From a virus, in IMG/VR virus record IMGVR_UViG_3300010883_000453, positions 1 through 24,246 of that record: a stretch of 24,246 nucleotides of DNA. One strand, 5' to 3'. Shown here piece after piece: positions 1 to 23,265 of this stretch. The first letter of the stretch is position 1, and every line of letters begins with the position of its first letter. The position numbers and the translations under genes were made by a program. The notes beneath the pieces are model-generated. The model searched no databases and had not been told where the DNA came from. It saw nothing but the letters and a program-made list of their open reading frames with translations.

Positions 1-54
1 CGCACTTTTATGGAACCTTCCGGGTCCCAGAAAAGCAATGCCCAACATCCTTAA
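1..54 (+). CDS. Possible 3' end of an upstream gene (portal or other head gene), partial
   Basis: The first frame is open from the window edge to a TAA at 52-54, with a C-terminus reading MEPSGSQKSNAQHP. It would overlap the proposed start of the giant gene (ATG 38), as other genes here overlap. In head modules of this kind a portal gene usually sits at this place, but 17 codons cannot identify a product. The giant-gene frame is also open to the window edge, so this fragment could equally be an untranslated shadow. Confidence 0.25.
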   Translation, partial: RTFMEPSGSQKSNAQHP

Positions 55-3000
55 AAAGAGATTCTTGTTTGACGATGTTGTGGAAACGAAGGGGGGGTAT
101 CTGGCCGGGACCAAGAGAGTAACGACGCAGACCAAGTTGATGAAGCATCACAGGACACTGATGTATGAGGACCTGTATGCAGATACCGTTACCGATGCAC
201 TTAACGTCACAAAGGATAGTGTAGATGAAGTCATGGCGGCGACGGCAGAAAGAGGGAACGTGTTCGTCTCCAAGCTGGATGCCTACTATGTGCCGACTGT
301 AACCAACCCTGAGTTTGCCAAGGAACTGGATTCCTTGTTAATCCCGTGGGACAACGCAACTGGGACTCGTAGCCTCGGTAAAGTGGTAGCTCTTACCGGG
401 GAGCAGGGAAGGGAGCTACTAAACTCTAATATCGGTGCAATGCGGTGGAGTGGCGAGCATGCGCAATTCATAACCCCTAGAGAAACGTTGCGAAAGGCTA
501 TGTCCAAGGCTCTTAGGAATACCGATGCAGCGTCTTTGCAGATTTCACTACCGACAAGAAGGGCTCTTGGGGTGGATGCTGTATTGCCAAGGCCGGTTAC
601 TGCGAAACTCACAACCGGTGTTAAAACACCGCCTACTGTTGGGAGCCTCAATCCCATTACAGGAATTGATGACGGGTCAGCAGTGGTGTTTTCAAAGGTT
701 ACCCCGTTGGTCGAAGGCACGCCAGAAGGATTGAGGATTCTGGATGGGCTTGAGGCCCACCAAAGCATTATCCACGCACCCCGATGGCCGAGGCCCACCC
801 CATTATCAGGTACATCAGGTGGATGGTGGGATGAGTACTCAAGATATTCAAAGGCTCAGGCGGTGGGGGAGCCAACTGATTTCTTGAAGGTCCAGAAGAA
901 GACGATGGACGGGTTTAACTGGTCAACGATAGACAATCATATAACGGCCTCAGATATAGACCGCCCTGCGGTATCCAAGGTAAAGATTGCCCCTGCCCCC
1001 AAGGGACACAAGCGTCTGTACAACGCCAGCACAGTAGACTGGGATGTAGATGATTACCTTGAGCCGCATGTTAGTGACTGGGTTAAGGAGGTAGCTGGCG
1101 GGGCTGGGGATGTGCCAGTAGAGGATATCACCGCACCGCTGGTTTTTATGGCTGAAGAGCCCGGCGACTGGATGACAAGCATTGTTTCTCGCAAACTAGG
1201 AAAGCCGAATAAGGCTGTGACCCTTGAAGATATCCGTGACCACGGGCGACTGAATATAATTGATGCAGATATCGACGATGCGATTTATAAGGTAGGTGAT
1301 TTTTCTGAGACTGGGGAGGTTATTGATTTAACCGGCTCTCGGCTGAAGTTCCATGAGACGGCGCTATACAGTGAGGGGGATGTGTATTCCGGGGCCGGTG
1401 CCCTTACTGATATGCCAGTGGGACCAGAGCCCCATGATTTTATAACCGGGAATGTGATGGACGTGAAAGCATCACTTACCGGGGATGACCTGATTGTATT
1501 TTTACGCTCGGAAGGCGTCGATTTACCTGACGGGGTAGTGGCTGCCCCATCGTCTGCGGCCCCCCCTAAAGTTTTCATCCCTGATTCCTCTACGAGGAAA
1601 GGTATTTCAGGTAAGGCTTACATGCTCGACAACCCAGAAAAGTATGCGTCTGGCCGAGGGGCGAAAGACCTAGCTATCTATGATGATATTCGGTTACCAG
1701 CGGATGGGGACTTACTCGTCGCACAACATACGACAAGCGAGAAATGGATAACCACGTTTTTAGATGAGGGCGTGGATGGGACCATACCACCACCTGACCG
1801 CAATCTAGGGAAGCTGACCATTACCGAATCTGGGGTCACGGTTAATACAAAAATAGATACCCCCGGCTTATACGTTACGCATTCCTCTGACATTACTTCT
1901 AAACCGCGAGTGGTGATTGTTACGCGGGCCGATGAGGTTATATCAAGCGTAGAGTCTATAGGGGCCGGGAGAAAGACTGGGTACGGGGCCTTGTATAACG
2001 GCGATGCCCTTTTGAATAAGCATATACCGGCTTCTGATATTGCTGGGAAAGTCCTTTACAGCGATGCTCAGTGGAAGGCTACTGGACAGGGGTGGTCGTA
2101 CACCCCCAATCCCAAAAGCCCTTACGGCAAGATGTTTCAGCTAAATGCACGTAATGAAGTTGTGCTTGCGCCCGCGCCTGTACCCGCGCCTGTACCCGCG
2201 CCCGCGCTTGCGCCCGCGAAGATAGATAAGTTCTTTCTTAGAACTGCTGATGACGCCATAGTTGTTAGAGAAGAGATTGAAGCTATTGAAGATGCTTGGT
2301 ACGGGACTCCAGCCAGTTTTGGAGAGCGGTATCCAGCACGTGCGCTATCTGACGATGTACCCGGATACACTGCTTACCGTAAGGAGCTGCAAACGGCTGC
2401 AAGAGAGGAGCTGGGAGAAGAGTTTACTGTATACCGTCTATGGGACAAGAATCATTTTGAAGCGTGGAAAGGCGGTGAGGACATAGGCCCGCTTTCTACA
2501 ACTCTCAGTAAGAAGAGGGCCGAGAGTTTTAGGAAGATGCCAGCTAATAAGGGGAAGGATTTAGTAGTCACTGAAATACGGGCCACCCCAGACGCTATGG
2601 TAATGCGTGGCATTGAGGGTGAGCTGGAGGTAGTCCTTGATTTTAATGAGCTAAGTTTTGCTGACTCGATGAAGGGTATGGGGCCGCTATCGGACATAGC
2701 GCCTACCCCTGCACCCGCGCTAGGGTCTGCGCGTCTGAAGTACTTAGACGACACGCTACCATTCTTTCTCGACAATGCGTCTGAGACTCTACGAGACACA
2801 AACAAGGTTTTACGTGAGCTGGCTGAAGGTGGGTTACCACGCGGGGCACCAATCCCCACAACAGTTAATGTTGCAGACGACATCGTAGCTGCTGCGTCTG
2901 GGAAGCCGGGGGCCACGTCACAGGTCTTTGCCGATAACGTTGATATGCTGGACTTTCTAACCCAGACAACGACGTTGAAGGAAGATGTGTTTTTGTACCG

Positions 3001-6000
3001 GTCAGTAAGTCCGAGTGTAGTAGAGAAGACGTTCGGCAAATCTTTATCCATAGGACAGGTTGCCGGGAATGACGGGTTCATCCAATGGTCGGCAACGTCT
3101 AGCGCCCCCGCACGCAAGGCCATGCGCCATAAGCCCGAGAGGAGAACCGTGCTTCGTATTCGTGCAGCCAAAGGCACTAAGGGGTTTTACTACGGGGGCG
3201 AGAACAAACAGTTCATCCTACCGCGTGGGACTACGTACCGGTTATCCAATGTAGAGGAGAATGTACTGGTTGGGTACCACCCAACTAAGGGCGGTAAGAT
3301 GAATTTATCGCGCCCCATATATTCCCGCGTGGTTACTGTGGAGTCGATTGCTAAAGTTGATGGGGCTGTTGTTGCGCCTGCAAAGACGGTGACCCATAGA
3401 GTGCCCCGTGGAAGTTCGTTAACGGCTATGGATGAGTTTGCGCGGAGCACAGATATAGAGTCCGTGAATGTGTTTACGGATACCACTTCTTCGGTAGGGG
3501 TTCATTCGGTAGTCGTGCAAAACGATATAACCAATTTATCAACCGGGGCTAGTAACGTGTACTCGAAATCTATGGCGGCTGGGATATCAGACCAACTGAC
3601 GGATGAGGCTTACAAGGCTGCCCGTAACGATACTCGTTTACTGCAATCGTATGCGGGAGCGAAGAGGGAACTGATTACCGATAAGTACATGCAGAAGGTA
3701 ACAGACGTGCAGCAAAAACTGGACGCGGTGTTTACCTCCCCCACCACTTCCAATTATCTCCCTGACCGCGTGTATACGTATGCGGCTATACAGGAGGGCC
3801 AAGACAAGGCGTGGAAGGGGATGCAGGTAGGAGATGCTTACAGTTCCCCCGGATATACGTCGTCTACTCTTGGCCCGCACACAGTTTTAGAGTCGGCTGG
3901 AATAGAGGCCAGTACTTTTGAATCTGGCAAATATGTAAAACGTACTATTGCCGGGGTGCCGTACAGCGTTGTTAAGGTGCCTGCCGCGACCCAGCCCACC
4001 ATTGTTCGGTACGTACTTCCTGAAGGCCAGCGAGCCCTTACGTCTTACGATAATCTAAATGTGATGTTGCCACGCAACACAACGTTTCGAGTACTGGGTA
4101 AAGAGCTGGATGTGCCCGTGTATCAGTGGACTGATGATGTTGGGGAGCTTCGCACCGTTACCGGGCGGGTTATTACGGTGGAGCCGATTAGCTTAAAAAA
4201 CATGGCCCCGACAGGTGCTGTTAAGGGGGCGGCAACAATACCCTTAAAGTTAGTCCCGCCTCCGCAGATGCTTCCGACGATACCTGTTTCCCCCACTTCA
4301 AAGCTGGGGAAGAAGGCTTCTAAACTTGCCAGCCAAGTCCCAAAAGCTGGTAAAGCTAAGGGGCGGGTGCGGGGGTATGGGGGCCTTAGCTCAGAAAGGT
4401 ACATGCACCCAATCAACGACCCTCTTAATCAGTCCGCAACGAAGGCGGCGTCAAAGATAGGGGCTGACTTAGAAATTAAGTACACACTGGTGGAAGAAGC
4501 CGGGTCATCTGGCCCCGCCTCATTCCGACCAGTTCTGGAGCAGACAGGCAGGAAAGTTAAAACCACTGGTGGGAGGAGGTTAAGTAAGTTTGAGCCAGCA
4601 GAACAGACCTACCTAGCGACATTGGACGATGCTAGGGATATACCCGTCAGCCTCCACTTAGATGACGTGATGCCGGTAGGCCGCTTAGGCGGTGGTGAAG
4701 GGTTCGAGTCGTTCATCGAGAAGGAATTTCAAGAGCGTATAGACACCCCTTGGGCTCATCGCGGGCGAACGACGGAAAAAATTAAGGGGGCTCGGGGGAG
4801 TATATCTAAGGTAGATGAGGTGTTTCGTGGAACGTTGTCGGCGGATGCGTTAACGGAAGCAGAGCTTTCTATGCACGCTGGTGCTAAAACAGTGTTTGAT
4901 AACGTACCCACCTTGCCGCAGGAGCTTGTCGTATACCGTGCGATGCGGGCATCTGAGTTGTTGGAGGAAGGTGCAAGGGACGTAGCCGGGGCAGTCGGTA
5001 GGGCTTACGCAAACCCAGCCCCCACGTACCTTACGACAGACATACGCCGCGCATCTAGGCATGCGGCTAGTATGCGTAAGGCAACACCGGATGCGGAAGT
5101 AGTCTTGGTGCAACTGAGATTAGAGGAGGGGGCCAAGGTTCTTTATATGGGTGATGGTAACGTGGTGGCTTCGCCCGGAACCGTGTTCCAGCTAGACGAA
5201 TTATTGCCAAAGGTAAATACCTTTGAAAGCACACTGGCTAATTCGACCAAGCCTGCTGGGTCTTTCGGCAGCTTTCAGGAGGCTAATCTTCTTCGATACA
5301 AGAGGTCTTTGTTAGACCCGGCCACGCCTTTTAGTGACGACGTATTTACAGCGTCAGCCTTTGCTAGACCCGATGAGGGTATGTGGGATTTCCCTGTTTT
5401 AAGTGGCAGGCAAGTCCCCACTACGCAAAGTGTAAACACGTCGGCCCGTCTTGGTAAGGGAACGAAACTGGGTATTGAGTGGGCGGACCACTCGTTCGGG
5501 GCACCAATACGGGGGGCATCGACTTCCGTTTCGGACATTATTGTAATGCCTTCCATAAGAGAGCCGGTACGGAATGTTACGGCAGAGGCAAGTACTTTTG
5601 ATGACGGTATTAAGCATTTCTATAGAAAGTATCGGGACGAGACGGATGTAAATTCGTGGTTGCGGGAGGTGCCTTCGGTAGACACTTCCAGTGATATCTA
5701 TGGGCTTGGTCAGGTTTCAACAGCGGACGATTTTATATCTAGCCACTCACTTATTGATAGAGACGAGATAGAGGCAGTGCGGTCGTGGTATACGGCTAAA
5801 GAAAATTCTAGTGAGGCGCTTTCTGTTTACATGCATGGAATGGCTGATGGCAAGAACGCAACTCTTATAGATGACGTTGCTAGGGGTATCGAGAAACCGG
5901 GGTTGGGTGCGCTAGAACTTCAAGCACGGGAAAAGTGGATACCTGCGTTGGACGAGTTGATAGAAACGTCGGAGGGGGCGTTTCCTAGACCGTACAGCAG

Positions 6001-9000
6001 GACCGCCGGGCGGTCAGCGGTGGACGACGTGTGGCCTGCGACTTACGGAGGCTCTGCCAGCAAGGGCACTATGGGGGTGGGAGATGTACATATAAATAGA
6101 ACGTACATGCACACCACGGTGCATCCACACAAAGCTGTTTTAGATGCCATAGAGAACAAGACACCGACGTTAACGAAGGACGGTACACGGGCGGTATACG
6201 AAGATGTAACGCTGACGAGGGTGTACATAAAGAAGGGGGACAAGGTTATACAAGTCGGCAGTCAGGAGGCCGAGGAGTTTTTACATGGAAGGGGGGCTGC
6301 ATTCCATGTTACTGAGGTTGAGAGTAACGCAATCTTAATGGAAGTCTCGAACATTCAGAGCAAAACAGAGGGCATAGATACAGCAGCGTGGTTCCCTACC
6401 CTAGACCCTAAACGTGCGGCGAAGGTGGACACGGTTTTTGTGCGTGGCGATATCATTACACTAGAAAGTGTAGCCCCTCAGCAAGTAGAAGCGGCGGCTG
6501 AAATAGGTGCGCGTCGTGGGGGTGTTATTGTGCCCGTAGACACCGGGGGCTACATAGCCGCTGATAACTCGTACTCTGCTGCGTGGAAAACGGCGTTGCG
6601 TGAACGAAAAGAGGCTGGGGTCTACGATGGTCGCTACGCTATAGAGGATATAGTTACGGACACTTACAAGGATTCGTATGCGGGTAATGGGCTCACGTCA
6701 CAATATGCATCACGTCCTCTCGACAAAGCAGCGGCTGCAAAATATGTCGAGGGGCCTCAAAGTTTTGTGCCGAACAAGGTGAAATTCGACCATGAGGCTG
6801 CGGTCAAGCGGGCGCGGGCTGCTGATGCGGGAAAGAAGCTCCCGAAAAAAGCTGTAGGTCATTATACCGGTATTGGGTCCGGGGAGATGAATGAGATTTC
6901 TAGGCTGTTGGATGAAGCCGAGAGATTACCGTCGTCTAGGCGTATGATTAGAGAGTCAGGGGCATGGGACCCGGACGTTGGGCTGGCAGAGACACTGTAT
7001 CCAAAAGGTGGTAAGTTTGATACCTACGCTGCAAACAGAATCATAAAGGCATTCAATGATGGGACGCTAAATTTCAAGTGGGGGGATGCGGAGTGGGCTC
7101 CCCGTGGCCAAAAGCTAGATGGCTGGTTAAGAATGGGGTTAACTGCTAGGGCGGGTAGTGGCACCACGCTTCGCATGCAACTAAGCCTACAACAAGCCCT
7201 TAAATACAAGTCATCGCCATTACCAGAAGATGTTATTTTGATGCGCGGCATCAAGGGGGCTCATCCGGGTAGGATGGGCGGGTTTAAGGAAGGGGAGCTG
7301 TTCACTAATTGGACAACCGGTAGTTGGACTGGTGACCCCAACCTAGCCTCTTCTTTTGGGAGGCTCGGTGGCCGTACAGTAGACGACATTGATGACCTGT
7401 TGAACCTTGGAAAAGTAACCTCCGATGGTAGCCGTGTATATTCCCCAGCCATCGTAGCGGCAAAGAAGGAGCGTGGCATTATGCTTCGGGTTAAGTATCC
7501 TAAAGGTGCTCCCTATACCACGGCCCCAGATTTTTTTGAGGAGGAATTTATTCTAGGGCCGTCTACGTTTAGAATTAAAAAGGCTACATACCGTGGGCAC
7601 GGCGAGGCGTCGTTCCATGATGTAAACTGGGAATTGAGAGGGGAAAGCAAGGCGCTTCTTCCAGAAAATGCTAAAGCCTTTGCGGATGGTCAGTGGGGTA
7701 AGCTCGGATTGGCGGACGATGAAATTGCCGAGCTTGACCAATTGCAGAATTTTCGTGACTGGCTGACCAAGGCATCGCAACTTCCTGATGACGATATACT
7801 GTGGGTAACAACGCCGTACACACGTTCCGATTTTGTTGAGACGTTGGATGCCCTTACGGATTCGGCTAAATATCGGGCAGCGGTAGAGGAGGCGGCTGGG
7901 GCGGGGCGCGAGTTTTTAGAGGGCATGGCTAGTAGGGCTAAGTTGGCTGGGACTATACGACCGTTTCAGCCCCCGCTTACACGGTGGCCGGTATTGAGCC
8001 AGATACAAGTCGGAGAGGGGAGCGTATACAGCGTACGCCACAGAGTAAGGGTCACTATCCCTTACGAGAGTATACCAGCACGGGTGCTGGATTTAGAGTA
8101 TGTCCCCACCGCCGCCGCTGCGGAAGCCATTGCCCCAGTACAGACACAGGCGGCGCTGGCAGAGGCGGCGGTCAAACTGGTCGATGACGCCGATGTCACG
8201 TTCAAACGTATTGCACGGGTTACCGATGAGGATTTTTTGCCGAAGACATGGCTGTCTGATGTTGACCCTGATGATGCCCGGTCTGTATTTACGGATACAG
8301 ATATAGGGGCGCGAAAAATATTTGTAACTGAAGTCAAGCCTGCCGACGTTGCCGCCCATATAAAAAATGGGGGGTCCATGCATGTTTCTGATAGCCGCAA
8401 AGTTGGCGCTTTGGTTACAGATAAGGGCACCGTGGGGAATCTGTTTAACAGCAATGGACCGGGGGCTGGGCGTGAGATGCTGCTCGACCTTATCGAAAAT
8501 GGAGATGCAAAAACTCTTGATTGTTTTGATGGGTTTTTGCCAGAGTACTACAAGCAATTCGGTTTCGTTGAGTACAAGAGGGTAAAGTGGAATGACGCAT
8601 ATGCCCCTAAGAAATGGGACTATGGTAAGCATGGCCGCCCAGATATAGTGTATATGAAATACGCAGGAGGAAATCGTGCCACAGTCAGACAAAGATTTAT
8701 TGCGGGGCAATCTCTTACATCAGACGCACAATCAGCTTTCGAGAGAGGGGCAGCTATCTCTCATCAAGCAGAGATTCGAGCATCGTTTAAGGGAGGAGCG
8801 GGGGGAGAAATGGCTAAACGAAAATCGCTTGCTGCTGGAAGAGCAGTGGAAAGGAATGATAAATCTAGGCTTATTCTGAACCAGTTGGCCGAACCCACGG
8901 ATAAACGGTCCCCCGCGTGGGCCATACGGTTTGGTGATGAGGGCAACGAGTTTTGGTTAGGTACTAGCGATGTCGGCCCAGACTTGAGGAGGGCCACCAC

Positions 9001-10072
9001 TGACCGGGCGGCAGTTGCCAATACTGTTGAGACGTTGACTACGGTACAAGGCTTTAACTCAGTGGATGAGGTTATCGAGTGGGCTGTTAGTCGAGGCGCT
9101 AAAAGGGAGTCGGTTACAGCCGTGTCGCGTTCGCTAGAGGCGAAGTATTCCCGCGCCCGTTTAATTGACCCTAGTCTTCGTAGCGGGGCGTCAGCGGAGG
9201 TTCTTGTTCAAGAGGCTAAAAGGGCGGCTAAAGCCGTTAAGAAGAAGGACGCACAGAGGGTGTTTTTAGATTTGCTGGAGCGCCCTGATATTACGCGAAA
9301 TATTGATGGGGTAACCTCCCGCCACAGGTTGTCCAAAACCGTTCGGAAGCAGCTCTTTCTTGACTCGGTAGACGATATGACAGAACTCCATAGGTCAGAA
9401 AGTTTTTTACCAGACATTGTTACAAAGCCCTACAGCGTAGTCGAGGTAGAGCTGCCTACTCCGGTGGCCCGTGCGACCGGGACTGTATTTGATTCATCCA
9501 CCCTAGTTATTACCCCGCCTAGTAACGTTGCGAAAAAGGTTATCCCGGTAATTAAGCCGACACCCGGTTCTTCCCAAATAGATGATACCGCCAGTGCTTT
9601 TTACGGCAAGGGGAGCGGGGAAAAGGTGACCTTCAGGTATGTTCGTAACCCAGAACCGGCTCCTAATTTTGGAAGTTTATACGGGCAAGATGTTGAACCG
9701 GCAGGGATGTACGTCAATGAGGCGACTTCGGGCCATGTGCCGCCCGGCTACGACTCCGGTACCCTGACGTTTAAGTCACCCCTTTATATTGAGGCGACGG
9801 GGGCCTACCAAGATAAATCGAGCTGGAAGCATGTATTGTCGAGCCGATATAGAACGACTGCCGATTCTGTTGGGACGACGTTATCGCGGAGAATCGTACA
9901 AGATGGGTATGACGGGGTAGTGGTAATTGAGCCAGCTACTGCAAAACGCGGAAGTTACGTAAGTGAGATTGTTGATTTGCGGTCGTTTGTGACCAAGAGC
10001 GAGGCGTTGCTAGAAGACGTGCTCCAGAATTCTCGGTACTTGCATGGGGTTGGTGGGGCGTCTTTATCGTAA
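38..10072 (+). CDS. Giant multi-domain ADP-ribosyltransferase-like phage protein (3344 aa)
   Basis: A single frame of 3344 codons, roughly 360 kDa. Read along its length: an unrecognised N-terminal region (1-310); a possible ART-like domain (about 320-500); a HTTS...GLYVT ART-like segment (about 552-680); an Ala/Pro linker (711-727); ART modules at about 735-880, 895-1110, 1170-1385, 1590-1725, 1850-2150 and 2290-2520; a GNAT-like segment (about 2730-2875); a helical region; and a C-terminal ART-like domain ending GYDG...E-IVDLRSF (about 3182-3322). ART enzymes move ADP-ribose from NAD+ to target proteins. Only two modules keep a clear R / STT / ExE set. The stop shares its last base with the next ATG. 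ATG 38 has only a weak ribosome site and the frame is open upstream, so the true start may lie outside the window. The position before the protease and capsid genes suggests a virion-associated, injected protein, but this is inference. It may also be read in parts (see 8676-8879). Confidence 0.88.
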   Translation: MPNILKKRFLFDDVVETKGGYLAGTKRVTTQTKLMKHHRTLMYEDLYADTVTDALNVTKDSVDEVMAATAERGNVFVSKLDAYYVPTVTNPEFAKELDSLLIPWDNATGTRSLGKVVALTGEQGRELLNSNIGAMRWSGEHAQFITPRETLRKAMSKALRNTDAASLQISLPTRRALGVDAVLPRPVTAKLTTGVKTPPTVGSLNPITGIDDGSAVVFSKVTPLVEGTPEGLRILDGLEAHQSIIHAPRWPRPTPLSGTSGGWWDEYSRYSKAQAVGEPTDFLKVQKKTMDGFNWSTIDNHITASDIDRPAVSKVKIAPAPKGHKRLYNASTVDWDVDDYLEPHVSDWVKEVAGGAGDVPVEDITAPLVFMAEEPGDWMTSIVSRKLGKPNKAVTLEDIRDHGRLNIIDADIDDAIYKVGDFSETGEVIDLTGSRLKFHETALYSEGDVYSGAGALTDMPVGPEPHDFITGNVMDVKASLTGDDLIVFLRSEGVDLPDGVVAAPSSAAPPKVFIPDSSTRKGISGKAYMLDNPEKYASGRGAKDLAIYDDIRLPADGDLLVAQHTTSEKWITTFLDEGVDGTIPPPDRNLGKLTITESGVTVNTKIDTPGLYVTHSSDITSKPRVVIVTRADEVISSVESIGAGRKTGYGALYNGDALLNKHIPASDIAGKVLYSDAQWKATGQGWSYTPNPKSPYGKMFQLNARNEVVLAPAPVPAPVPAPALAPAKIDKFFLRTADDAIVVREEIEAIEDAWYGTPASFGERYPARALSDDVPGYTAYRKELQTAAREELGEEFTVYRLWDKNHFEAWKGGEDIGPLSTTLSKKRAESFRKMPANKGKDLVVTEIRATPDAMVMRGIEGELEVVLDFNELSFADSMKGMGPLSDIAPTPAPALGSARLKYLDDTLPFFLDNASETLRDTNKVLRELAEGGLPRGAPIPTTVNVADDIVAAASGKPGATSQVFADNVDMLDFLTQTTTLKEDVFLYRSVSPSVVEKTFGKSLSIGQVAGNDGFIQWSATSSAPARKAMRHKPERRTVLRIRAAKGTKGFYYGGENKQFILPRGTTYRLSNVEENVLVGYHPTKGGKMNLSRPIYSRVVTVESIAKVDGAVVAPAKTVTHRVPRGSSLTAMDEFARSTDIESVNVFTDTTSSVGVHSVVVQNDITNLSTGASNVYSKSMAAGISDQLTDEAYKAARNDTRLLQSYAGAKRELITDKYMQKVTDVQQKLDAVFTSPTTSNYLPDRVYTYAAIQEGQDKAWKGMQVGDAYSSPGYTSSTLGPHTVLESAGIEASTFESGKYVKRTIAGVPYSVVKVPAATQPTIVRYVLPEGQRALTSYDNLNVMLPRNTTFRVLGKELDVPVYQWTDDVGELRTVTGRVITVEPISLKNMAPTGAVKGAATIPLKLVPPPQMLPTIPVSPTSKLGKKASKLASQVPKAGKAKGRVRGYGGLSSERYMHPINDPLNQSATKAASKIGADLEIKYTLVEEAGSSGPASFRPVLEQTGRKVKTTGGRRLSKFEPAEQTYLATLDDARDIPVSLHLDDVMPVGRLGGGEGFESFIEKEFQERIDTPWAHRGRTTEKIKGARGSISKVDEVFRGTLSADALTEAELSMHAGAKTVFDNVPTLPQELVVYRAMRASELLEEGARDVAGAVGRAYANPAPTYLTTDIRRASRHAASMRKATPDAEVVLVQLRLEEGAKVLYMGDGNVVASPGTVFQLDELLPKVNTFESTLANSTKPAGSFGSFQEANLLRYKRSLLDPATPFSDDVFTASAFARPDEGMWDFPVLSGRQVPTTQSVNTSARLGKGTKLGIEWADHSFGAPIRGASTSVSDIIVMPSIREPVRNVTAEASTFDDGIKHFYRKYRDETDVNSWLREVPSVDTSSDIYGLGQVSTADDFISSHSLIDRDEIEAVRSWYTAKENSSEALSVYMHGMADGKNATLIDDVARGIEKPGLGALELQAREKWIPALDELIETSEGAFPRPYSRTAGRSAVDDVWPATYGGSASKGTMGVGDVHINRTYMHTTVHPHKAVLDAIENKTPTLTKDGTRAVYEDVTLTRVYIKKGDKVIQVGSQEAEEFLHGRGAAFHVTEVESNAILMEVSNIQSKTEGIDTAAWFPTLDPKRAAKVDTVFVRGDIITLESVAPQQVEAAAEIGARRGGVIVPVDTGGYIAADNSYSAAWKTALRERKEAGVYDGRYAIEDIVTDTYKDSYAGNGLTSQYASRPLDKAAAAKYVEGPQSFVPNKVKFDHEAAVKRARAADAGKKLPKKAVGHYTGIGSGEMNEISRLLDEAERLPSSRRMIRESGAWDPDVGLAETLYPKGGKFDTYAANRIIKAFNDGTLNFKWGDAEWAPRGQKLDGWLRMGLTARAGSGTTLRMQLSLQQALKYKSSPLPEDVILMRGIKGAHPGRMGGFKEGELFTNWTTGSWTGDPNLASSFGRLGGRTVDDIDDLLNLGKVTSDGSRVYSPAIVAAKKERGIMLRVKYPKGAPYTTAPDFFEEEFILGPSTFRIKKATYRGHGEASFHDVNWELRGESKALLPENAKAFADGQWGKLGLADDEIAELDQLQNFRDWLTKASQLPDDDILWVTTPYTRSDFVETLDALTDSAKYRAAVEEAAGAGREFLEGMASRAKLAGTIRPFQPPLTRWPVLSQIQVGEGSVYSVRHRVRVTIPYESIPARVLDLEYVPTAAAAEAIAPVQTQAALAEAAVKLVDDADVTFKRIARVTDEDFLPKTWLSDVDPDDARSVFTDTDIGARKIFVTEVKPADVAAHIKNGGSMHVSDSRKVGALVTDKGTVGNLFNSNGPGAGREMLLDLIENGDAKTLDCFDGFLPEYYKQFGFVEYKRVKWNDAYAPKKWDYGKHGRPDIVYMKYAGGNRATVRQRFIAGQSLTSDAQSAFERGAAISHQAEIRASFKGGAGGEMAKRKSLAAGRAVERNDKSRLILNQLAEPTDKRSPAWAIRFGDEGNEFWLGTSDVGPDLRRATTDRAAVANTVETLTTVQGFNSVDEVIEWAVSRGAKRESVTAVSRSLEAKYSRARLIDPSLRSGASAEVLVQEAKRAAKAVKKKDAQRVFLDLLERPDITRNIDGVTSRHRLSKTVRKQLFLDSVDDMTELHRSESFLPDIVTKPYSVVEVELPTPVARATGTVFDSSTLVITPPSNVAKKVIPVIKPTPGSSQIDDTASAFYGKGSGEKVTFRYVRNPEPAPNFGSLYGQDVEPAGMYVNEATSGHVPPGYDSGTLTFKSPLYIEATGAYQDKSSWKHVLSSRYRTTADSVGTTLSRRIVQDGYDGVVVIEPATAKRGSYVSEIVDLRSFVTKSEALLEDVLQNSRYLHGVGGASLS
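1690..2075 (+). other. Possible ART-like domain (HTTS / GLYVT type) in the giant protein
   Basis: Residues about 552-680. The segment starts with VAQHTTSEK (H564), continues with FLDEGVDG, and has GLYVTHSS about 50 residues later, before a mixed alpha/beta end. An early His-x-Thr and a later Gly-Leu-Tyr recall the H-Y type of ART fold (PARP-like, often written HGT...Y). No convincing third catalytic residue was found, so the fold is a guess from pattern. The preceding segment (residues about 320-500, around PLVFMAEEPGDW) may be a related domain but was not recognised. Confidence 0.35.
2168..2218 (+). repeat. Ala/Pro-rich linker encoded by a tandem 12-base repeat
   Basis: The 12-base unit CCCGCGCCTGTA occurs twice in tandem and is followed by degenerate GCGCCC units. 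It encodes APAPVPAPVPAPALAPA (residues 711-727). It separates the N-terminal unknown region from the first clear ART module. Similar shorter linkers occur at residues 318-322 (APAPK), about 888-896 (PTPAPALG) and 1113-1116 (APAK). Such sequence usually forms an extended, flexible spacer. Confidence 0.8.
2240..2680 (+). other. ART module 1 of the giant protein, catalytic residues intact
   Basis: Residues about 735-880. A helical N-lobe with GYTAYRKEL leads into FTVYRLW (R800), then LSTTLS (S820-T-T822), then EGELEVVLD (E862-L-E864). This is the order and spacing of the R-S-E class of ART enzymes (ExoS, VIP2 and C3 relatives): Arg and Ser-Thr-x contact NAD+, and the last Glu is catalytic. The usual LPRGT after ExE is replaced by LDFNE. 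This is one of the two modules most likely to be active. The target protein is unknown. Confidence 0.75.
2720..3365 (+). other. ART module 2 of the giant protein, catalytic Glu apparently replaced
   Basis: Residues about 895-1110. VFLYRSV supplies R988 and IQWSATSS (1018-1022) matches the STS strand. FILPRGTTYRL, typical of the strand after the ExE motif, is preceded by ENKQ. If the LPRG strand is aligned, Q1058 sits at the catalytic Glu position and N1056 at the first Glu, although a one-residue shift would bring in E1055. It ends with RVVTVESI, which recurs as RVITVEPI after the next module. Confidence 0.7.
3545..4195 (+). other. ART module 3 of the giant protein, pseudo-enzyme
   Basis: Residues about 1170-1385. 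It is closely related to module 2: SSPGYTSST (1272-1277) fits the STS strand, and VMLPRNTTFRV matches FILPRGTTYRL. The Arg strand reads VYTYA, so Arg is replaced by Thr. The ExE position reads N1339-L-N1341. With both Glu and the Arg missing it is unlikely to transfer ADP-ribose and may serve for binding or structure. Confidence 0.7.
4805..5215 (+). other. ART module 4 of the giant protein, ExE lost
   Basis: Residues about 1590-1725. LVVYRAM gives R1634 and PTYLTTD (T1666-T1667) the STS-like strand. The last strand, NVVASPGTVFQL, aligns with EVLLPRGTKFRV-type sequences, but the ExE position reads D1706-G-N1708. The NAD-contact residues survive in part while the catalytic Glu is Asn, so it is probably inactive as a transferase. 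Confidence 0.65.
5585..6490 (+). other. ART-like module 5 of the giant protein, divergent
   Basis: Residues about 1850-2150. The helical start (IDRDEIEAVRSWYTAKENSS) resembles the N-lobe of ART toxins. RTYMHTTVH (T2026-T2027) fits the STS strand. EAEEFLHGRGAAFHV (E2077-A-E-E2080) fits the ExE strand with catalytic Glu at 2080 but Ala two residues before it. It ends with DIITLESV, like the RV-TVE-I endings of modules 2 and 3. The Arg strand is unclear (PRPYSR is one candidate). Confidence 0.5.
6900..7605 (+). other. ART module 6 of the giant protein, catalytic residues intact
   Basis: Residues about 2290-2520. VILMRGIKG provides R2403, TNWTTGSWT (2426-2429) the STS strand, and FFEEEFILGPSTFRI the ExE strand with E2501-E-E2503. 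The spacing between the STS and ExE strands is longer than in module 1, with a GGRTVDDIDD loop between them. With module 1 it is the best candidate for an active transferase in the chain. Confidence 0.7.
8225..8665 (+). other. GNAT-like acetyltransferase segment of the giant protein
   Basis: Residues about 2730-2875. NSNGPGAGREMLLDLIENG resembles the acetyl-CoA pyrophosphate-binding loop and helix of GNAT enzymes (Q/R-x-x-G-x-G/A). TLDCFDGFLPEYYKQFGFVEYKRVKWND matches the strand-helix-YxxxGF ending common to the fold. Acetyl transfer is the family reaction. Whether this copy binds acetyl-CoA, and its substrate, cannot be told. It ends right where the nested AGGAGG site lies. Confidence 0.55.
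8665..8670 (+). promoter_or_regulatory. Strong Shine-Dalgarno inside the giant gene
   Basis: AGGAGG, five bases before GTG 8676. Among the purine-rich AGGAGG-like hexamers I could find inside the giant gene, this is the only one that is both a perfect match and well placed before an out-of-frame start with a long open frame. Confidence 0.55.
8676..8879 (+). CDS. Nested out-of-frame small gene, unknown function (67 aa)
   Basis: GTG start five bases after AGGAGG, ending at TGA 8877-8879, in a different frame from the surrounding 3344-codon gene. The product (starting MPQSDKDLLRGNLLHQ, ending EEQWKGMINLGLF) is charged and leucine-rich with even heptad-like spacing, as expected of a real helical protein. 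Over the same bases the giant frame reads an Ala/Gly/Ser/Gln/Arg-rich run (residues 2880-2948) unlike its flanks, which is how an off-frame reading of a real gene often looks. A further in-frame ATG for the giant frame occurs at 8810 after a purine-rich stretch, so a downstream product 8810-10072 (420 aa) is possible. No family was recognised. Confidence 0.5.
   Translation: MPQSDKDLLRGNLLHQTHNQLSREGQLSLIKQRFEHRLREERGEKWLNENRLLLEEQWKGMINLGLF
9575..10010 (+). other. C-terminal ART-like domain of the giant protein (GYDG type)
   Basis: Residues about 3182-3325. FRYVRNPE (R3200), AGMYVNEATS, LTFKSPLYIEA, IVQDGYDGVVV (around 3290) and EIVDLRSF (E3310) appear in that order. This order recalls small ART-like domains of large phage and mobile-element polyproteins, where a GYDGI strand precedes a final Glu-containing strand. 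The assignment rests on pattern alone. Confidence 0.45.
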
Positions 10073-10365
10073 TGCCGCGCATACTAAAAAAGGATTTGCA
10101 GGTAATTGCACAGAGGGTATCCGGGTCTGGTCGCCCCCTAAGCGGGGAGATAGGGGCCTTCTTGGTTGGGTGGTCACCGGAGAATAGAGCCCAGACTTCA
10201 GCTACGTACATTGTCCGGTTGGATGGTGACACGGTTGTCGCAGGCCCACGGTCCTATGAATCGGTAGTTAAGTTTGGGTACTGGGGTCCGGTTACCAGCC
10301 ACGCCGTAATACCAGATGTAATCGGTAGGGCGTGGCGATTTATTAACAGGGGGGCACCAGTTTAA
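10072..10365 (+). CDS. Hypothetical protein (97 aa), coupled to the giant gene
   Basis: Its ATG shares one base with the giant gene's TAA (TAATG), so translation is probably coupled to it. The product begins MPRILKKDLQ and has a compact mixed fold with beta-like stretches (GAFLVGWSP, TYIVRLDGDTVV, FGYWGPVTSHAV) and no signal peptide or membrane segment. Its first seven residues resemble those of the giant protein (MPNILKK). No family was recognised. Close coupling to the giant gene and distance from the capsid genes make a partner of the giant protein (chaperone, packaging or silencing factor) possible, which is a guess from context. Confidence 0.75.
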   Translation: MPRILKKDLQVIAQRVSGSGRPLSGEIGAFLVGWSPENRAQTSATYIVRLDGDTVVAGPRSYESVVKFGYWGPVTSHAVIPDVIGRAWRFINRGAPV

Positions 10366-10646
10366 TGCCACCCTTCCCTGCCCCCAGTTATCGTCTCTAT
10401 GGGGACCTTCCGGTTAAGTGCGAGCCCGATGAAGTCAGCGGGGTTCGGTTCATGGTTTATAACTGGGGGACCGGGGGGTTTGAGCGCAATGACCGCTTAG
10501 GTGTCTGTGTCTATCTCGGACTAGACCCCTATGCTGACCCTGAAGATGCGTCCGCACAGGACGGGTTTGATACCACTGTTTTGTCTGCACGTAGTTTTAA
10601 CAGTTACGTTGCTAACTTAAAAAAATTAAAGGGCCAAGGCACCTAG
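10365..10646 (+). CDS. Hypothetical protein (93 aa)
   Basis: Starts at a TAATG overlap with the previous gene and is followed by a 35-base gap. The product (MPPFPAPSYRLYGDLPVK...) has two Cys (VKCEPDE and GVCVYLG), an acidic stretch DPYADPEDASAQDG, and a basic end KKLKGQGT. No signal peptide, membrane span or known motif was seen. The tight three-gene coupling from the giant gene suggests one transcriptional and functional unit. Function unknown. Confidence 0.72.
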   Translation: MPPFPAPSYRLYGDLPVKCEPDEVSGVRFMVYNWGTGGFERNDRLGVCVYLGLDPYADPEDASAQDGFDTTVLSARSFNSYVANLKKLKGQGT

Positions 10647-10665
10647 AGAACTATGGGGAATTTAG

Positions 10666-10683
10666 GTATGCTAGAGTAGGTAT
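10666..10683 (+). promoter_or_regulatory. Promoter-like or processing element before the protease gene
   Basis: GTATGCTAGAGTAGG lies in one of the few true gaps (10647-10681). A very similar GTATGCTACAGTATGG occurs in the gap before the tail tube gene (17459-17474). TATGCT could be a -10 box, but no good -35 lies 16-18 bases upstream. It could also be an operator or an RNA cleavage site. Confidence 0.3.
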
Positions 10684-12337
10684 GCCGACGACTGAGACAC
10701 ATGCGCACAAGGCCGATATGGTTGCGAGTGACTTGGTTGCCGGGGGGCGATTGAATGACGAACAACGCCCATCTACTACAAGGAGGAACGCCCCTGTGCC
10801 GATAGAGGTATGCACTACAGATACTAACGTAAAGGGGTGGCGTTGGGGGTCTTCCGGTAAGTGTTACACGGGCGCGGGCGCACGCGCACAGGCACGCGCA
10901 CAAGGGGCGGCGCAAATGGCATCTGAGAGCCGGGGAGTAAAAAAGGCTGCCCCACTAGCTGCTCTTTTAGTTTTAGGGCTGATTGCCGAGAAGGTGGTTC
11001 TCTATGCCGTCCGTTTTTATGAGACTATGCACGTGGGGAAAGTAGCGTCTCACTTGGGGCATAAGTTGAGTTCCAACGACTCTAGGCCAGCAGTCAAGGA
11101 CCTATTCTCTACGATTGAGTCAGGGGGGGAGGTTACTCGGCGTCAAGTTGGTAGAGTGATGCGGGGTATGACCCTGCCCCAGATAAACCGTGTGTTTGGC
11201 GGTCTTCCAGAGGCCCGTAGGATGCTTAAAGCCTTGGGCGAATTAGAGAAGAGTCGAAAGGGTTTCATAGCGCAGGGTGATATGGGACCCAGCAGGTACC
11301 CGAAACCTAATATACCCGTGGAGCCGGGTGCCCTTTTGGCGTATGTCCAGAACTCTGTATGGAAGCAGGAAACTGAACGCAGTGATGTTGAGGTGCATAA
11401 GATAGCTCCTTTGTTAATGCACGCCATGCATAAACTTGTGAAACTTGCGGAGATAGCGTTAGTAGCGTTCTTCACACACGAACAGATAGAGCGGGGGCGT
11501 AAATATTTTCACGAGGACAGCGAAAAACAGGCGGATAAACGCAAGCGGAGGGAGGTGCGTGAGGACCTACGCACCCTGTCATTGAAAGAAATAAAAAAAC
11601 GCTATGGGAGTGTGCGTGAATTCAAGGCGCTGATGTCCCACCTTAAACAGGTGCGCTCAGAGTTTAGCTTGGGCCTACCAGAAAAAGAGTTCTACGCGCA
11701 AATAATGCGCAGGGCTCCTAAGTCCCAGTATACGACGGTCAGCAAAGATGAGGTCATTACGGCTACGATGTCCGAGGTTAAAAAGACGGATAGTGAATTA
11801 CGTATTGCGTGGGGGGAGGTCTACGCACCGAATGTGCCAGATTCACAGGGTGACTACATGACCGCTGATGAGATACGAAAAATGGCCCACCGGTTTATGG
11901 AGAACGGGCGTCAGCATAAGGTGGACTGTAACCACGATAACAAGGAGGCCCACACCAACGTGGTGGTGGAGAGCTTTATCGCCCGTAAGGATGACCAGAC
12001 GTTTATACCTGAGTCGTGGGTGGTGGGGGTGCATGTCCCTGACCAATCTATCTGGGAGTCGATTAAGAAAGGGGAGATAAACGGATTTTCGTTACAGGCC
12101 CGCGCAATGCGTAGCGCCACTACTTCTAAGCTCGAAGTTCTGCGTGAACCGTCCGGTATGGTGTTGGCAGCACATGGACACACGCACTCTTTTAACGTAT
12201 CGTTTAGTGACGAAGGTAGGTTTATTGGCGGGGAGACATCATTTGACGAAGGGCATGCGCATGCGATTAACGGTGGAACCGTTACAGAACCGGCTGGGGC
12301 AACCAGCCACATACATAGGTATAGTGTAATAGGATGA
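10682..12337 (+). CDS. Prohead protease, XkdF-like, with His-rich tail (551 aa)
   Basis: Residues 376-480 match the XkdF family of phage prohead serine proteases: VYAPNVPDSQGDYMTADEI (from V380), VDCNHDN (H418), ESWVVGVHV and GEINGFSLQ (S470). H418 and S470 are the likely catalytic pair. The enzyme would process scaffold and head proteins in the procapsid. Before it come a GWRWGSSGKCYTG motif (about 52-64) seen in other phage head proteins, a hydrophobic helix (about 90-112), and a long basic helical region. After it, from residue 498, come HGHTHSF, GHAHAI and SHIHRY, a metal-binding-like His repeat. The first 28 residues copy the major capsid N-terminus. ATG 10682 has a poor ribosome site, whereas in-frame GTG 10796 (V39) sits nine bases after AAGGAGG, so a 513-residue form is a serious alternative. 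Confidence 0.85.
   Translation: MPTTETHAHKADMVASDLVAGGRLNDEQRPSTTRRNAPVPIEVCTTDTNVKGWRWGSSGKCYTGAGARAQARAQGAAQMASESRGVKKAAPLAALLVLGLIAEKVVLYAVRFYETMHVGKVASHLGHKLSSNDSRPAVKDLFSTIESGGEVTRRQVGRVMRGMTLPQINRVFGGLPEARRMLKALGELEKSRKGFIAQGDMGPSRYPKPNIPVEPGALLAYVQNSVWKQETERSDVEVHKIAPLLMHAMHKLVKLAEIALVAFFTHEQIERGRKYFHEDSEKQADKRKRREVREDLRTLSLKEIKKRYGSVREFKALMSHLKQVRSEFSLGLPEKEFYAQIMRRAPKSQYTTVSKDEVITATMSEVKKTDSELRIAWGEVYAPNVPDSQGDYMTADEIRKMAHRFMENGRQHKVDCNHDNKEAHTNVVVESFIARKDDQTFIPESWVVGVHVPDQSIWESIKKGEINGFSLQARAMRSATTSKLEVLREPSGMVLAAHGHTHSFNVSFSDEGRFIGGETSFDEGHAHAINGGTVTEPAGATSHIHRYSVIG
10780..10786 (+). promoter_or_regulatory. Strong Shine-Dalgarno for an alternative protease start
   Basis: AAGGAGG, nine bases before the in-frame GTG at 10796. 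It is much better than anything before ATG 10682. It may mean that the protease proper begins MPIEVCTTDTNVKGW and that the upstream 38 codons are an extension. Confidence 0.5.
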
Positions 12338-13827: not shown

Positions 13828-13835
13828 CCACCTTA

Positions 13836-13842
13836 TAAGGAG
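13836..13842 (+). promoter_or_regulatory. Shine-Dalgarno of the major capsid gene
   Basis: TAAGGAG, eight bases before ATG 13851, in the 23-base gap after the scaffold gene. It is strong and well spaced, as expected for the most abundant protein. Confidence 0.75.
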
Positions 13843-13850
13843 CAAAACTT

Positions 13851-14921
13851 ATGCCTTCAAATGAAAATATAATCCAGAAAGCCGATATGGTCCTTGCGGA
13901 CCTGTCGGGCGGCACAAAGGGAGGGCTGCTCAATGACGAGCAAGCCGCTGCTTTTGTCCGTAAACTTATTGACCAGCCGACTTTGCTGCGGCAGATTCGC
14001 ACGGTGGAAATGAATTCCCCGACTCGCCAGATAAACAAAATCGGTTTTGGGTCGCGCATTATGAAAGCTGGCCCGGCAGCGTTGACTACCGGCGGTGTGG
14101 CGCTTGCCGCAGGTGACCGAAGTTCTGCTGTTACCGAGCAGGTGACCCTGACGACTAAAGAGGTAATGGCTGAAGTCCATCTCCCCTATGACGTTATCGA
14201 GGACAACATTGAGCGCGGCAACACGTCGGCTGGCGGCCCTACTGGTACAGGCGGCCCCAGAGCTGGGGGCATACAGGATACAATCCTGTCGCTGATAGCC
14301 GAGAGAGCTGCCCTTGACCTTGAGGAGCTGGCTCTTCTCGGGGACACCGCCAGCGGTGACGCCTATCTGGCTTTGCAGGATGGGTTCTTGGAGCAGGCGA
14401 AGGACAATGGCGTTGCTGATAGCACGCAGATTGACTTTACGGCCAACGCCGAGGGTTACATCCCGAACACGTCAACGGCGTATGCTGGTACCACCGGTAC
14501 TATCTATGACCTCGGTGAGATAAATAAAGAGCTGTTCCGCAAAGCCTTGCAGGCAATGCCGACGCAGTACTTGCGAAACCGGGCGGACATGAAGTTCTTC
14601 TTGTCGATAGACCAAGAAATCAACTACCGAAATTCGCTTGGTAACCGCGTGGACGCCCTCGGTGACCGCATGGTTGAAGGCAATGATGCGGTCCGGGCTT
14701 TCGGAGTACCGGTGGAGCCGGTGGCTCTGATGCCAGCGGCTAACGGGTTGTTCTGTGACCCGCTGAACCTGATAATGGGTGTGCAGCGCAAGCTCACATT
14801 TGAGTACGACAAGGATATACGCGCACGGGAGTTTATCATTGTCGTGAGTAGCCGGGTGGCGTTTGCAATCGAAGAGGTTGACGCTACGATTTACATGAAG
14901 GGAATTGGGGTTAGCGCCTAG
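13851..14921 (+). CDS. Major capsid protein, HK97-like fold (356 aa)
   Basis: The N-terminal arm reads QKADMVLADL...GLLNDEQAAAF. It is followed by RQIRTVEMNSPTRQINKIGFGSR, a beta region ending LTTKEVMAEVHLPYDVIEDNIERG, a long helix (LSLIAERAALDLEELALLGD), and a C-terminal part with YLRNRADMKFFLSIDQEINYRNSLGNR and FGVPVEPVALMP...REFIIVVSSRVAFAIEEVDATIYMKG. This is the order of N-arm, E-loop, spine helix and A/P domains in HK97-type capsid proteins, and the length is normal. It lies after protease and scaffold and before connector genes. A strong Shine-Dalgarno and a terminator behind it fit high expression. No clear protease cleavage site was identified. Confidence 0.9.
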   Translation: MPSNENIIQKADMVLADLSGGTKGGLLNDEQAAAFVRKLIDQPTLLRQIRTVEMNSPTRQINKIGFGSRIMKAGPAALTTGGVALAAGDRSSAVTEQVTLTTKEVMAEVHLPYDVIEDNIERGNTSAGGPTGTGGPRAGGIQDTILSLIAERAALDLEELALLGDTASGDAYLALQDGFLEQAKDNGVADSTQIDFTANAEGYIPNTSTAYAGTTGTIYDLGEINKELFRKALQAMPTQYLRNRADMKFFLSIDQEINYRNSLGNRVDALGDRMVEGNDAVRAFGVPVEPVALMPAANGLFCDPLNLIMGVQRKLTFEYDKDIRAREFIIVVSSRVAFAIEEVDATIYMKGIGVSA

Positions 14922-14955
14922 TCCTCAGTAGTTGTCTAATGCGGTGACTGTAACA

Positions 14956-22900: not shown

Positions 22901-23265
22901 GCGTGCCTGCGAGCATGTTCGCGGGCGCGGGCTCATACGCGATGGGCGGAGCCGTTCCCGTTATAGCCCACAAGGGGGAGGGGATATTTACCCCTAAGCA
23001 AATGAATAACGCTGATATGCTGTTTGCCAAACTTCAGCAGAACTCATCCCCTTCGGTAACCGTTAACATATCAACTCCGCCGGGTACGTCTGCGACGGTT
23101 CAGGAAAAGCGCGGTGGTGGTGCGGGCGGTCAGGATGTGCAGATGGAGGTGTTGGTTGAGATGGTCGAATCTAAGATGAGTTCTAGGCTACAGAGCGGTG
23201 GGGGTTTGGCCCCCGCACTAGAGCAACAATATGGGCTTGACCGTAGCCGTGGGCAATACCGATGA
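19912..23265 (+). CDS. Tail tape measure protein (1117 aa)
   Basis: Residues about 60-330 match the TP901-type tape measure core (FDVGIRNVQTLMPESVAQ, STGVATKTLTDGLYQVVSAFG, GYGDTSSEAADHISDLAQMTVKLGQTTFGELAQSI, LNVTTEELFNTFATLTGVTGDTR). Two hydrophobic stretches follow (about 392-420 and 462-483), likely membrane-active at DNA entry. Residues about 884-1030 resemble the lambda gpH C-terminus (LTDFVMTGKSNFADFAKSLIKDIARIIIKAKM...GEGGTVGAEV...GEGIFTPKQM). It sets tail length; at about 1.5 angstrom per residue the tail would be near 165 nm. Residues about 722-802 form an odd globular insert (KQLFTLKWAWEDPEGKMQTG). It starts six bases after the chaperone stop and ends in an ATGA overlap with the next gene. 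Confidence 0.95.
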   Translation: MGLQGNDLEFALRFVNEGAASLEQAAKQMRGLGTDAKKTQTYWEKTGITMRDVGRAIGWTTGVLLSFRKGLKVFEEFDVGIRNVQTLMPESVAQVEEMGLAIEDMAVSTGVATKTLTDGLYQVVSAFGATKDSIDILRIANESAVAGLATTEQAVALLSSVMKGYGDTSSEAADHISDLAQMTVKLGQTTFGELAQSIRKVVPLAFELNVTTEELFNTFATLTGVTGDTRRVSTQYQGVLRSLLKPQGRMAEMIQATGFASAKTLIQVKGFQGALEALNLAAIKGGVGLEEFFIETEGLVATLSLLGSQSDVTKVKLTKFAKAAGERARAFEIQMGSLKTSFGQLRESVAVIWRHIGSTLAPWVKEMAAKVVIWARAYVALEPQMKLHITQMGIYVSLLAMAVPLLTLFVKFLKPVFGMVRLVSTAFMSFNLLMLGQTFPNLAKAVVMFRKLAAALTMVAFNPAFLAAAIAIGGIMYALDAMGISLSEQVAAIGNLGSIVLRELKTWVAYVYQYKDEIIGTVKAVMKAVMLSVRAVMRTFGAVLLGFAGLLTGNIEMLRRGAELLEEAMSDVGSAFLGATEAVQRDYTRSWVRTFAAVAAGAKMSLETLKGVLSDPFFAAQPVATINRHLMHGLVDVSNAMQDALYPDANAFVGPPEKIKEGAKKTLDDLRAEMASGGLDFDSLFGSAKGGGKAAINKILSFFGFGPGQLPDALKEAFAQASVEIAVGMESVAFVGESSSGKQLFTLKWAWEDPEGKMQTGFSTRTYFANELEAAKAAIQAGNSSIRGEVVEVPLAQVGYDATLAPRDSPWYENLTAIRAEAMKLQESLPGAVALREEYDKTIRLLDAALSGNEHLTQGIGELRDAALVAYDEGLSQLYDLEEPIDSMEGFISAWKMSFKQIGDESQITGTNIKDIMGDAMEGMADSLTDFVMTGKSNFADFAKSLIKDIARIIIKAKMLQFLKAMMPGTFGEGGTVGAEVDALGGMVGRTGAPRARVPASMFAGAGSYAMGGAVPVIAHKGEGIFTPKQMNNADMLFAKLQQNSSPSVTVNISTPPGTSATVQEKRGGGAGGQDVQMEVLVEMVESKMSSRLQSGGGLAPALEQQYGLDRSRGQYR

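Follow-up and report, generated by a model that had tools for sequence, protein, structure and literature searches.

The window analysed here, IMG/VR virus record IMGVR_UViG_3300010883_000453 (24,246 bases), opens with a gene of 10,035 bases whose 3,344-residue product, referred to below as the giant protein, appears to carry an array of ADP-ribosyltransferase (ART) modules. The firmest part of the assignment comprises four modules, M3, M4, M5 and M6 (amino acids, aa, 932-2103), which sequence profiles place in the R-S-E (Alt/VIP2-like) branch of the ART fold; a further R-S-E module (M7), a GNAT-like segment and a C-terminal H-Y-type ART-like module (M9) probably follow in the same chain. On the preferred reading, which has a probability of roughly 0.55, the giant protein is a polyvalent effector that a DLP5-like siphophage most probably carries inside its particles and delivers along with its DNA. 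A preliminary description of the sequence had counted at least six ART segments; the number was about right, but the segments are of unequal strength, with M3-M6 firmest, M9 good, M7 moderate and M2 supported by its motif only. The derivation of the modules from two ART clades, R-S-E and H-Y-type, had been missed. The features of the giant gene are as follows.

38..10072, plus strand: giant gene, 3,344 codons (10,035 bases), 0 internal stops
2270..2677, plus strand: M2, R-S-E ART candidate, aa 745-880, by motif only (YR 799-800, STT 820-822, ELE 862-864)
2831..3280, plus strand: M3, putative R-S-E ART module, aa 932-1081, by leave-one-out profiles, external profile, PF03496 and phrog_3895
3617..4129, plus strand: M4, R-S-E ART-like module, aa 1194-1364, by leave-one-out profiles and blind pick
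4772..5227, plus strand: M5, R-S-E ART-like module, aa 1579-1730, by leave-one-out profiles and blind rank 1
5840..6346, plus strand: M6, putative R-S-E ART module, aa 1935-2103, by leave-one-out profiles and external profile
7079..7609, plus strand: M7, probable R-S-E ART module, aa 2348-2524, by hhalign, a low-confidence model and retained R and EEE
8366..8887, plus strand: GNAT-like segment, aa 2777-2950, by phrog_2563 and tblastn to phage genes
9614..9997, plus strand: M9, H-Y-type ART-like module, aa 3193-3320, by family membership, model and fold searches

The R-S-E modules of the giant protein

R-S-E ARTs are recognised by an arginine that ends strand 1, together with STS-like and ExE-like motifs. 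Whole-protein profile searches detected M3 alone among the modules, with phrog_3895 (ART exoenzyme) at an E value of 7e-4; PF03496 likewise sees only M3 (E 0.001 on the slice, below Pfam's curated cut-off), and PF01129 found nothing in the giant protein. The other modules were examined by leave-one-out searches: a profile was built from five modules and the sixth was sought among 3,289 sequences, which included 1,288 phage open stretches (six-frame stretches of at least 80 aa, many of which are not genes) and 2,000 shuffles. Rank 1 in every profile was taken by a near-identical copy of the window in L007, which had stayed in a background meant to be free of frames with the giant protein's last 1,500 residues. 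M4 followed at rank 2 (E 5.2e-5), M3 at rank 3 (3.9e-4), M6 at rank 2 (0.0022) and M5, the weakest of the four, at rank 2 (0.035, with the best shuffle close at 0.049). The strongest foreign matches in five of the six profiles were mycobacteriophage VIP2-like ARTs.

A profile made from 12 such VIP2-like ARTs, with nothing from the window, was then used as an external query, the frames of L007 and L014 and the 12 ARTs themselves having been removed from the background. Five T-even Alt-type proteins came first (E about 0.05), and protein windows over M3 (0.14-0.25) and M6 (0.18-0.4) came ahead of all 1,640 shuffles, the best of which had 1.1, and of the top unrelated frame, at 2.7, with E values that for M3 and M6 are not significant by themselves. 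When the external ARTs were added to the leave-one-out profiles (3,819 sequences, with the frames of L038 also removed), M3 (E 0.008), M5 (0.14) and M6 (0.011) each ranked first and M4 sixth (0.1), all four ahead of the best shuffle. A stretch at rank 7 in this extended test, I1, overlaps the edge of M5, which was already in the profile, and is not evidence. Against 177,635 PDB sequences, the profile of M3-M6 gave two matches at E ≤10, both to C3-type ARTs (0.27 and 0.30), and the profile of all six modules gave four, the top two being ARTs and the other two a polyketide synthase.

Because the borders of M2-M7 had been set by eye from motifs, which introduces selection bias, a blind test was added in which the five best external-profile windows were taken automatically from the giant protein and from 23 decoys (1 reversed, 12 shuffled, 8 concatenated from real phage frames and 2 from other giant phage proteins). 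The windows picked in the giant protein were M3, M6, M4 (at aa 1181), M5 and a fifth, at aa 1781, that corresponds to no recognised module. The summed leave-one-out score was -1.45, compared with -7.2 to -12.8 for the decoys, placing the giant protein above all 23. Ranks among 901 were 1 for M5 (E 0.003), 13 for M6, 22 for M3, 104 for M4 and 226 for the fifth window, so that what the test backs is the array taken together and not its modules one by one. In the same scoring, the top windows of the L051 protein (aa 881-1070) and the L073 protein (aa 141-330) reached 6.4 and 5.4 bits with the VIP2-like profile, and single R-S-E ARTs may thus occur in other giant phage proteins.

The M3 slice matched seven phage records at E ≤10, five annotated as ADP-ribosyltransferase and two hypothetical with identical alignment figures (E about 2). 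Apart from a second record of the same phage sequence (G001, described below), no relatives of the array were found by tblastn against phages (aa 1-1654 at E ≤0.01; M5 slice at E ≤10) or in plasmids, genome contigs and viral contigs by pattern-based scans, which find only close relatives; aa 1-500 likewise had no relative beyond the second record in viral contigs. Self-BLAST of the giant protein gave no internal repeats at E ≤1.

Active-site residues were read from alignments, and the calls for M3-M5 depend on a P-R-G-T anchor, clear in both M3 and M4 but less clear in M5, which two alignments place differently. On this reading, M3 keeps YR and has NKQ in place of the expected ExE, with glutamine for the catalytic glutamate; M4 has NLN at the glutamate site and has also lost the strand-1 arginine; and M5 keeps YR with GN (asparagine) at the glutamate position. 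M6 keeps EAEEFL, its arginine being uncertain. In M7 both R and ExE appear intact (MRG ... EEEFIL), as they do in M2 (YR ... ELE) if M2 is an ART.

Profile similarity to known R-S-E ARTs was found for M3-M6, for M7 by hhalign only, and not for M2. Aligned with M3-M6 and the external ARTs, M7 scored 28.8 in hhalign, and none of 100 shuffles did as well in each of two runs (best shuffle 26.6), with a program probability of only 18%. An AlphaFold2 model of M7 had low confidence (mean predicted local distance difference test score, pLDDT, 45.7; predicted template modelling score, pTM, 0.34), and the alignment behind it contained VIP2-like ARTs, making it ART-biased and the model not independent. 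In Foldseek, all of the best 50 of 207 rows for this model were R-S-E ARTs, with 12 matches at E ≤0.001 and low TM-scores, and VIA-align gave Z up to 7.2 over residues 81-252, with what we take in some cases to be ART folds in nearly all of 50 rows. M7 failed in the HMMER leave-one-out searches (rank 84 of 3,289 and 90 of 3,819); alone against the PDB it gave 11 rows, all T-cell receptors, and its slice matched five phage records, namely T2 Alt at E 9, upstream of the module core, and four unrelated ones. Taken together, M7 is a moderately supported R-S-E ART module. M2 ranked 710 of 3,289, was not found in the extended test of 3,819, and was equalled in hhalign by 73 and 79 of 100 shuffles in two runs; its candidacy as an ART is a matter of motif only.

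Other stretches picked by eye were rejected. As ARTs, aa 335-520 (M0) ranked 817 and aa 540-715 (M1) 1,140 of 3,819, with 5 and 38 of 100 shuffles, respectively, as good in hhalign, and tblastn of aa 325-721 gave one chance-level row. M1 was also tried as a PBECR5-type domain, with a three-sequence profile, and shuffles took every one of the top 16 rows. The hhalign results for aa 1-200, 150-340 and 1760-1930 (3, 8 and 6 of 100 shuffles as good) were not counted as matches.

The giant frame is real: it runs for 3,344 codons without a stop, and its last 5.7 kb are carried open, with three substitutions, by the second record. Given the base composition of the window, and with codons taken as independent, the chance of such a run is ~10^-73; the remaining two forward frames have 186 and 267 stops, each in 3,343 codons. 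The second record, G001 (IMGVR_UViG_3300036814_000666), aligns with window bases 4372-24246 (19,875 bases, 99.98% identity, 4 mismatches, 0 gaps) and reads through 1,899 codons of the frame without a stop, the two assemblies being possibly not fully independent. The single frame of over 10 kb noted in the preliminary description was thereby borne out, with bases 1-4371 supported by the window record alone. The two records differ at only four positions, 6708, 8027, 8034 and 10323; three of these fall within the giant gene, each changing an amino acid, a number too small for a statistical test. The frame stays open back to window base 2, the start codon at 38 is an assumption, and the true start could lie upstream of the record. 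A frame-1 reading frame that ends at base 54 is possibly the end of a preceding gene, and its 17 residues were matched to nothing.

The C-terminal module and the GNAT-like segment

M9 belongs to an ART-like family that is separate from the R-S-E modules and common in giant phage proteins. Residues 3098-3318 match the C terminus of a 960-aa podophage protein (MW202647; 32% identity over 221 aa, E 1e-17), the sole GenBank phage relative found for M9, whose gene lies downstream of capsid genes. A degenerate DNA search for GQDxEPxGxY in 2.9 million viral contigs gave 39 stretches, one of them in G001; the other 38 frames match the end of the giant protein at E ≤1e-3, and 30 of their domain sequences are distinct. 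At least 700 aa are present in 23 of the 38 frames, the longest having 2,985, and several are cut by contig ends. The family (L039-L077; the copy L053 was left out of the analyses) also includes short frames of 134-186 aa, of which two run into contig ends. Four carriers were scanned with Pfam, and two are polyvalent proteins by their Pfam domains: L063 has LPD39, ART-PolyVal and PBECR5, and L048 has InPase, ddrB-ParB and ART-PolyVal, the ART-PolyVal domain in both sitting elsewhere in the chain than the M9-type domain. L051 has PBECR5 only and L046 no Pfam match. Ten neighbour genes at seven M9-type loci included a terminase (L046), a tail protein (L051) and a virion structural gene (L073), the other seven matching nothing at E ≤1e-5. 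Two carriers, L050 and L060, also share aa 3006-3192 with the giant protein.

A model of M9 built from 31 sequences was confident (pLDDT 86.9, pTM 0.82). Foldseek against the PDB gave nothing at E ≤0.001; diphtheria toxin led (best E 0.095, 13 of 50 rows) and the rest were mostly unrelated. VIA-align reached a best Z of 4.5, which is low, and 41 of its 48 rows carried titles of diphtheria-type toxins, PARPs or ParT. The remaining seven were two NatRT entries, an anti-CRISPR protein, an Xre-RES entry, a cyanophage pre-ejectosome chain, a Toxoplasma entry and VirB11; the NatRT, anti-CRISPR and Xre-RES entries are presumably ART-like as well. In a viral structure library the top match had an E value of 3e-10, and among 50 rows three were named PolyVal ART and one ART-PolyVal-like. 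Because the VIA-align list is consistent, even at Z under 5, there is good support from the model and the family sequences for an ART fold in M9, as a distant member at best. In the structure prediction and fold searches of slices proposed in the preliminary description, M9 gave a confident model with weak, consistent ART matches, and the ART matches of M7 came from a low-confidence model.

The tyrosine and late glutamate of the M9 family are invariant in all 31 sequences, and the strand-1 position is arginine in the window and histidine in some relatives. PF18760 (ART-PolyVal) was matched by 2 of the 31 members at E ≤0.1 (best 0.0087), and the window's own domain matched no family; M9 is filed as ART-like and not as PF18760. 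Searches of PDB sequences with M9, alone or as a profile, returned unrelated entries. No M9-like repeats scored above shuffles elsewhere in the giant protein, and R-S-E modules sought in M9-bearing proteins gave a best slice E of 0.11 compared with 0.17 for a shuffle.

The GNAT-like segment noted in the preliminary description is present, and aa 2777-2950 are GNAT-like by their relatives. Residues 2777-2875 match phrog_2563 (E 7.7e-15), for which no function is given, and tblastn of aa 1656-3344 found 199 phage records; among the matches listed, 14 of 19 for the GNAT-like stretch are annotated acetyltransferase and 5 hypothetical. In all, 20 records were listed, and the remaining one (H1) covers the C-terminal module, not the GNAT-like stretch. 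The segment has no Pfam or PDB match, and the giant protein as a whole matched nothing in NCBIfam and no polymerase families.

Gene neighbourhood and the portal-protease slot

The following genes lie downstream of the giant gene.

10072..10365, plus strand: 97-aa gene; its start codon ATG shares one base with the stop codon of the giant gene; no family matched
10365..10646, plus strand: 93-aa gene; one-base stop/start overlap with the 97-aa gene; no family above chance
10682..12337, plus strand: XkdF-type head protease (PF14550, E 1.5e-29, domain aa 363-477; phrog_15223)
13851..14921, plus strand: major capsid protein (phrog_1623, E 9.5e-91)
19912..23265, plus strand: tape measure protein, 1,117 aa (phrog_991, E 9.4e-27, and other phrogs)

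The location in a head gene cluster was confirmed, with head protease, capsid and tail genes following on the same strand, including a tail protein that matches phrog_290. The giant protein, said to be three times the length of the tape measure protein, is 2.99 times as long. The capsid protein has 48% identity with its counterpart in Stenotrophomonas phage DLP5 and 45% with the one in Rhodobacter phage RcZahn, both phages of ~100 kb. The head protease has 551 aa, compared with about 190-255 aa in the relatives compared; its ~360 extra residues are N-terminal, and no Pfam family was found in the first 361. The products of the 97-aa and 93-aa genes could be partners or inhibitors of the giant protein.

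Since the giant gene and the two small genes stand just before the protease, the natural reading, by analogy with relatives, is that they occupy the slot between portal and protease. Nine relatives with a recognisable portal were compared, plus-strand frames of at least 120 aa being counted in L008-L013. The gap is empty in five (RcZahn, RHph_TM16, L008, L010 and L011) and filled in four: DLP5 and L012 each have one gene there, L013 has three frames, and L009 has two overlapping frames besides four of 138-323 aa. Matches to the glycine-rich domain PF21722 were found in frames of the L009 slot (L009:1310-3917), and slot content therefore differs between phages. The DLP5 slot protein, gp2 (446 aa), matches Phage_Mu_F at E 5.7e-6, which does not reach the curated cut-off, and also has a ParB-like match. 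No similarity to the giant protein was found in the five slot proteins compared, DLP5 gp2 included.

Proposed role of the giant protein

Polyvalent proteins with ARTs have been proposed to be packaged and injected with DNA (PMC5512222, PMC9503650). Like them, and like the Pseudomonas aeruginosa prophage-derived WP_023121221.1, the giant protein would be a giant multi-domain chain with several ARTs, mixed domains and a neighbourhood of virion genes. At least two disparate domains appear to be joined in it (R-S-E ARTs, GNAT-like segment and M9), the M9 family is shared with such chains (L063 and L048), and its phage origin is indicated by the head protease, capsid and tail genes that follow. By profile, its modules fall in the same clade as T4 Alt and the VIP2-like ARTs of MuF-ART fusions and mycobacteriophage proteins. 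Those R-S-E proteins carry, to our knowledge, a single ART each, unlike the array seen here, in which no MuF domain was detected. DLP5 gp2 would share the portal-protease slot with the giant gene, a placement deduced from synteny, but it differs in size and has no detected similarity. Injection of Alt from the head is described in PMC9503650 and PMC5512222, and the former also mentions fusions of Alt/VIP2 ARTs to MuF. The N4-type virion RNA polymerase, of about 3,500 residues (PMC12633501), offers a parallel as a giant protein that is packaged and ejected, with different domains.

The packaging model fits because of the late-gene position, the portal-protease slot and the M9 family. The giant protein would be synthesised alongside the head proteins, become part of the particle and reach the cell together with the phage genome. 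As infection begins, host proteins would be ADP-ribosylated by those modules in which the acidic motif is retained, namely M7, M9, perhaps M6 and, if it is a real module, M2; some substrate may be acetylated by the GNAT-like part. M3-M5, whose catalytic glutamate seems lost, would more likely bind NAD+, targets or structural partners.

Several observations weigh against this reading. The catalytic glutamate is apparently lost in M3-M5, by alignment three of the four firmest modules, and the term "polytoxin" used in the preliminary description is to that extent overstated. Most single scores for the array are weak: the profile made without M5 had no ART in its top five, protein windows over M2, M4, M5 and M7 were absent from the best 25 rows of the external profile, and four of the five blind picks had E values of 2.4 to 51. 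Large parts of the chain carry no assignment (aa 1-740, 1420-1570, 2150-2290 and 2540-2700), and neither Pfam nor PHROGs matched anything, MuF included, in aa 1-340, where a divergent MuF is possible. Packaging and injection are argued from gene position only; the upstream gene lies beyond the window edge, the portal being placed there from relatives, and in a tenth relative, Vibrio phage PG28, no portal match was seen upstream.

The apparent loss of glutamate would also suit a mainly structural or ejection-machinery protein in which ART folds that have hardly any transferase activity, if any, are reused as non-enzymatic modules of the head or of the ejection path. A relative of M9 forms the C terminus of a podophage protein encoded in a virion gene region, and the VIA-align list for M9 contains the cyanophage pre-ejectosome chain (9k3a_B, Z 3.9). 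However, M7 (EEE) and M2 (ELE) keep the acidic motif, the GNAT-like segment suggests enzymes, and RcZahn and RHph_TM16 have no gene in the slot, which together leave a structural role improbable, if worth keeping in mind. Gene position as the single argument for packaging would also allow an unpackaged effector, expressed late together with the structural genes, that acts inside the cell on the dying host or on superinfecting phages. We hold this to be quite unlikely, given a gene just before the head protease in a morphogenesis cluster and the estimate in PMC9503650 that ~44% of phage ARTs have gene contexts which point to packaging in the head.

With several of its modules degenerate (M3-M5 at the glutamate, M4 also at the arginine, M6 partly), the chain could instead act as a decoy or sponge: its ART folds, most of them dead, would bind NAD+, ADP-ribose signals or host targets and so blunt NAD-based defence on entry. 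The chances of this are slim: M7 looks intact, and the one paper found in the open-access literature on phage ART pseudoenzymes is a general review. A related proposal, of which we are also doubtful, is a virion-delivered R-S-E array, made mostly of pseudo-enzymes for the same ligands with one or two live transferases, that would serve as a multivalent sponge or scaffold and an anti-defence device, not as a polytoxin. An artefact, either a chimeric contig or a spurious frame, is scarcely credible; bases 1-4371 do occur in one record only, but the open frame in the second record (bases 4372-10072), the chance value of ~10^-73 and module homologies along the frame speak against it.

The polyvalent effector that is preferred here would extend a known type of protein. 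An architecture of six or more ART modules had been thought undescribed, but WP_023121221.1, with 12 ART copies, was published in 2017 (Iyer et al., PMC5512222) and stands in a section on H-Y-D type ARTs. In the open-access papers covered, known multi-ART chains are not built mainly from the R-S-E branch of the fold; in the giant protein, unlike the published polyvalent ART chains, four to five modules appear to be of R-S-E type and three apparently catalytically dead. Within the open-access literature, multi-ART chains are thus already known, and an R-S-E array joined to an H-Y-type module is a new variant. It makes testable whether ART modules that are dead as enzymes are retained by phages for their binding, and why one chain should hold several of them, and it points to a widespread ART-like GQDxEPxGxY family (38 IMG/VR relatives, 30 of them distinct) that is largely missed by Pfam ART-PolyVal.
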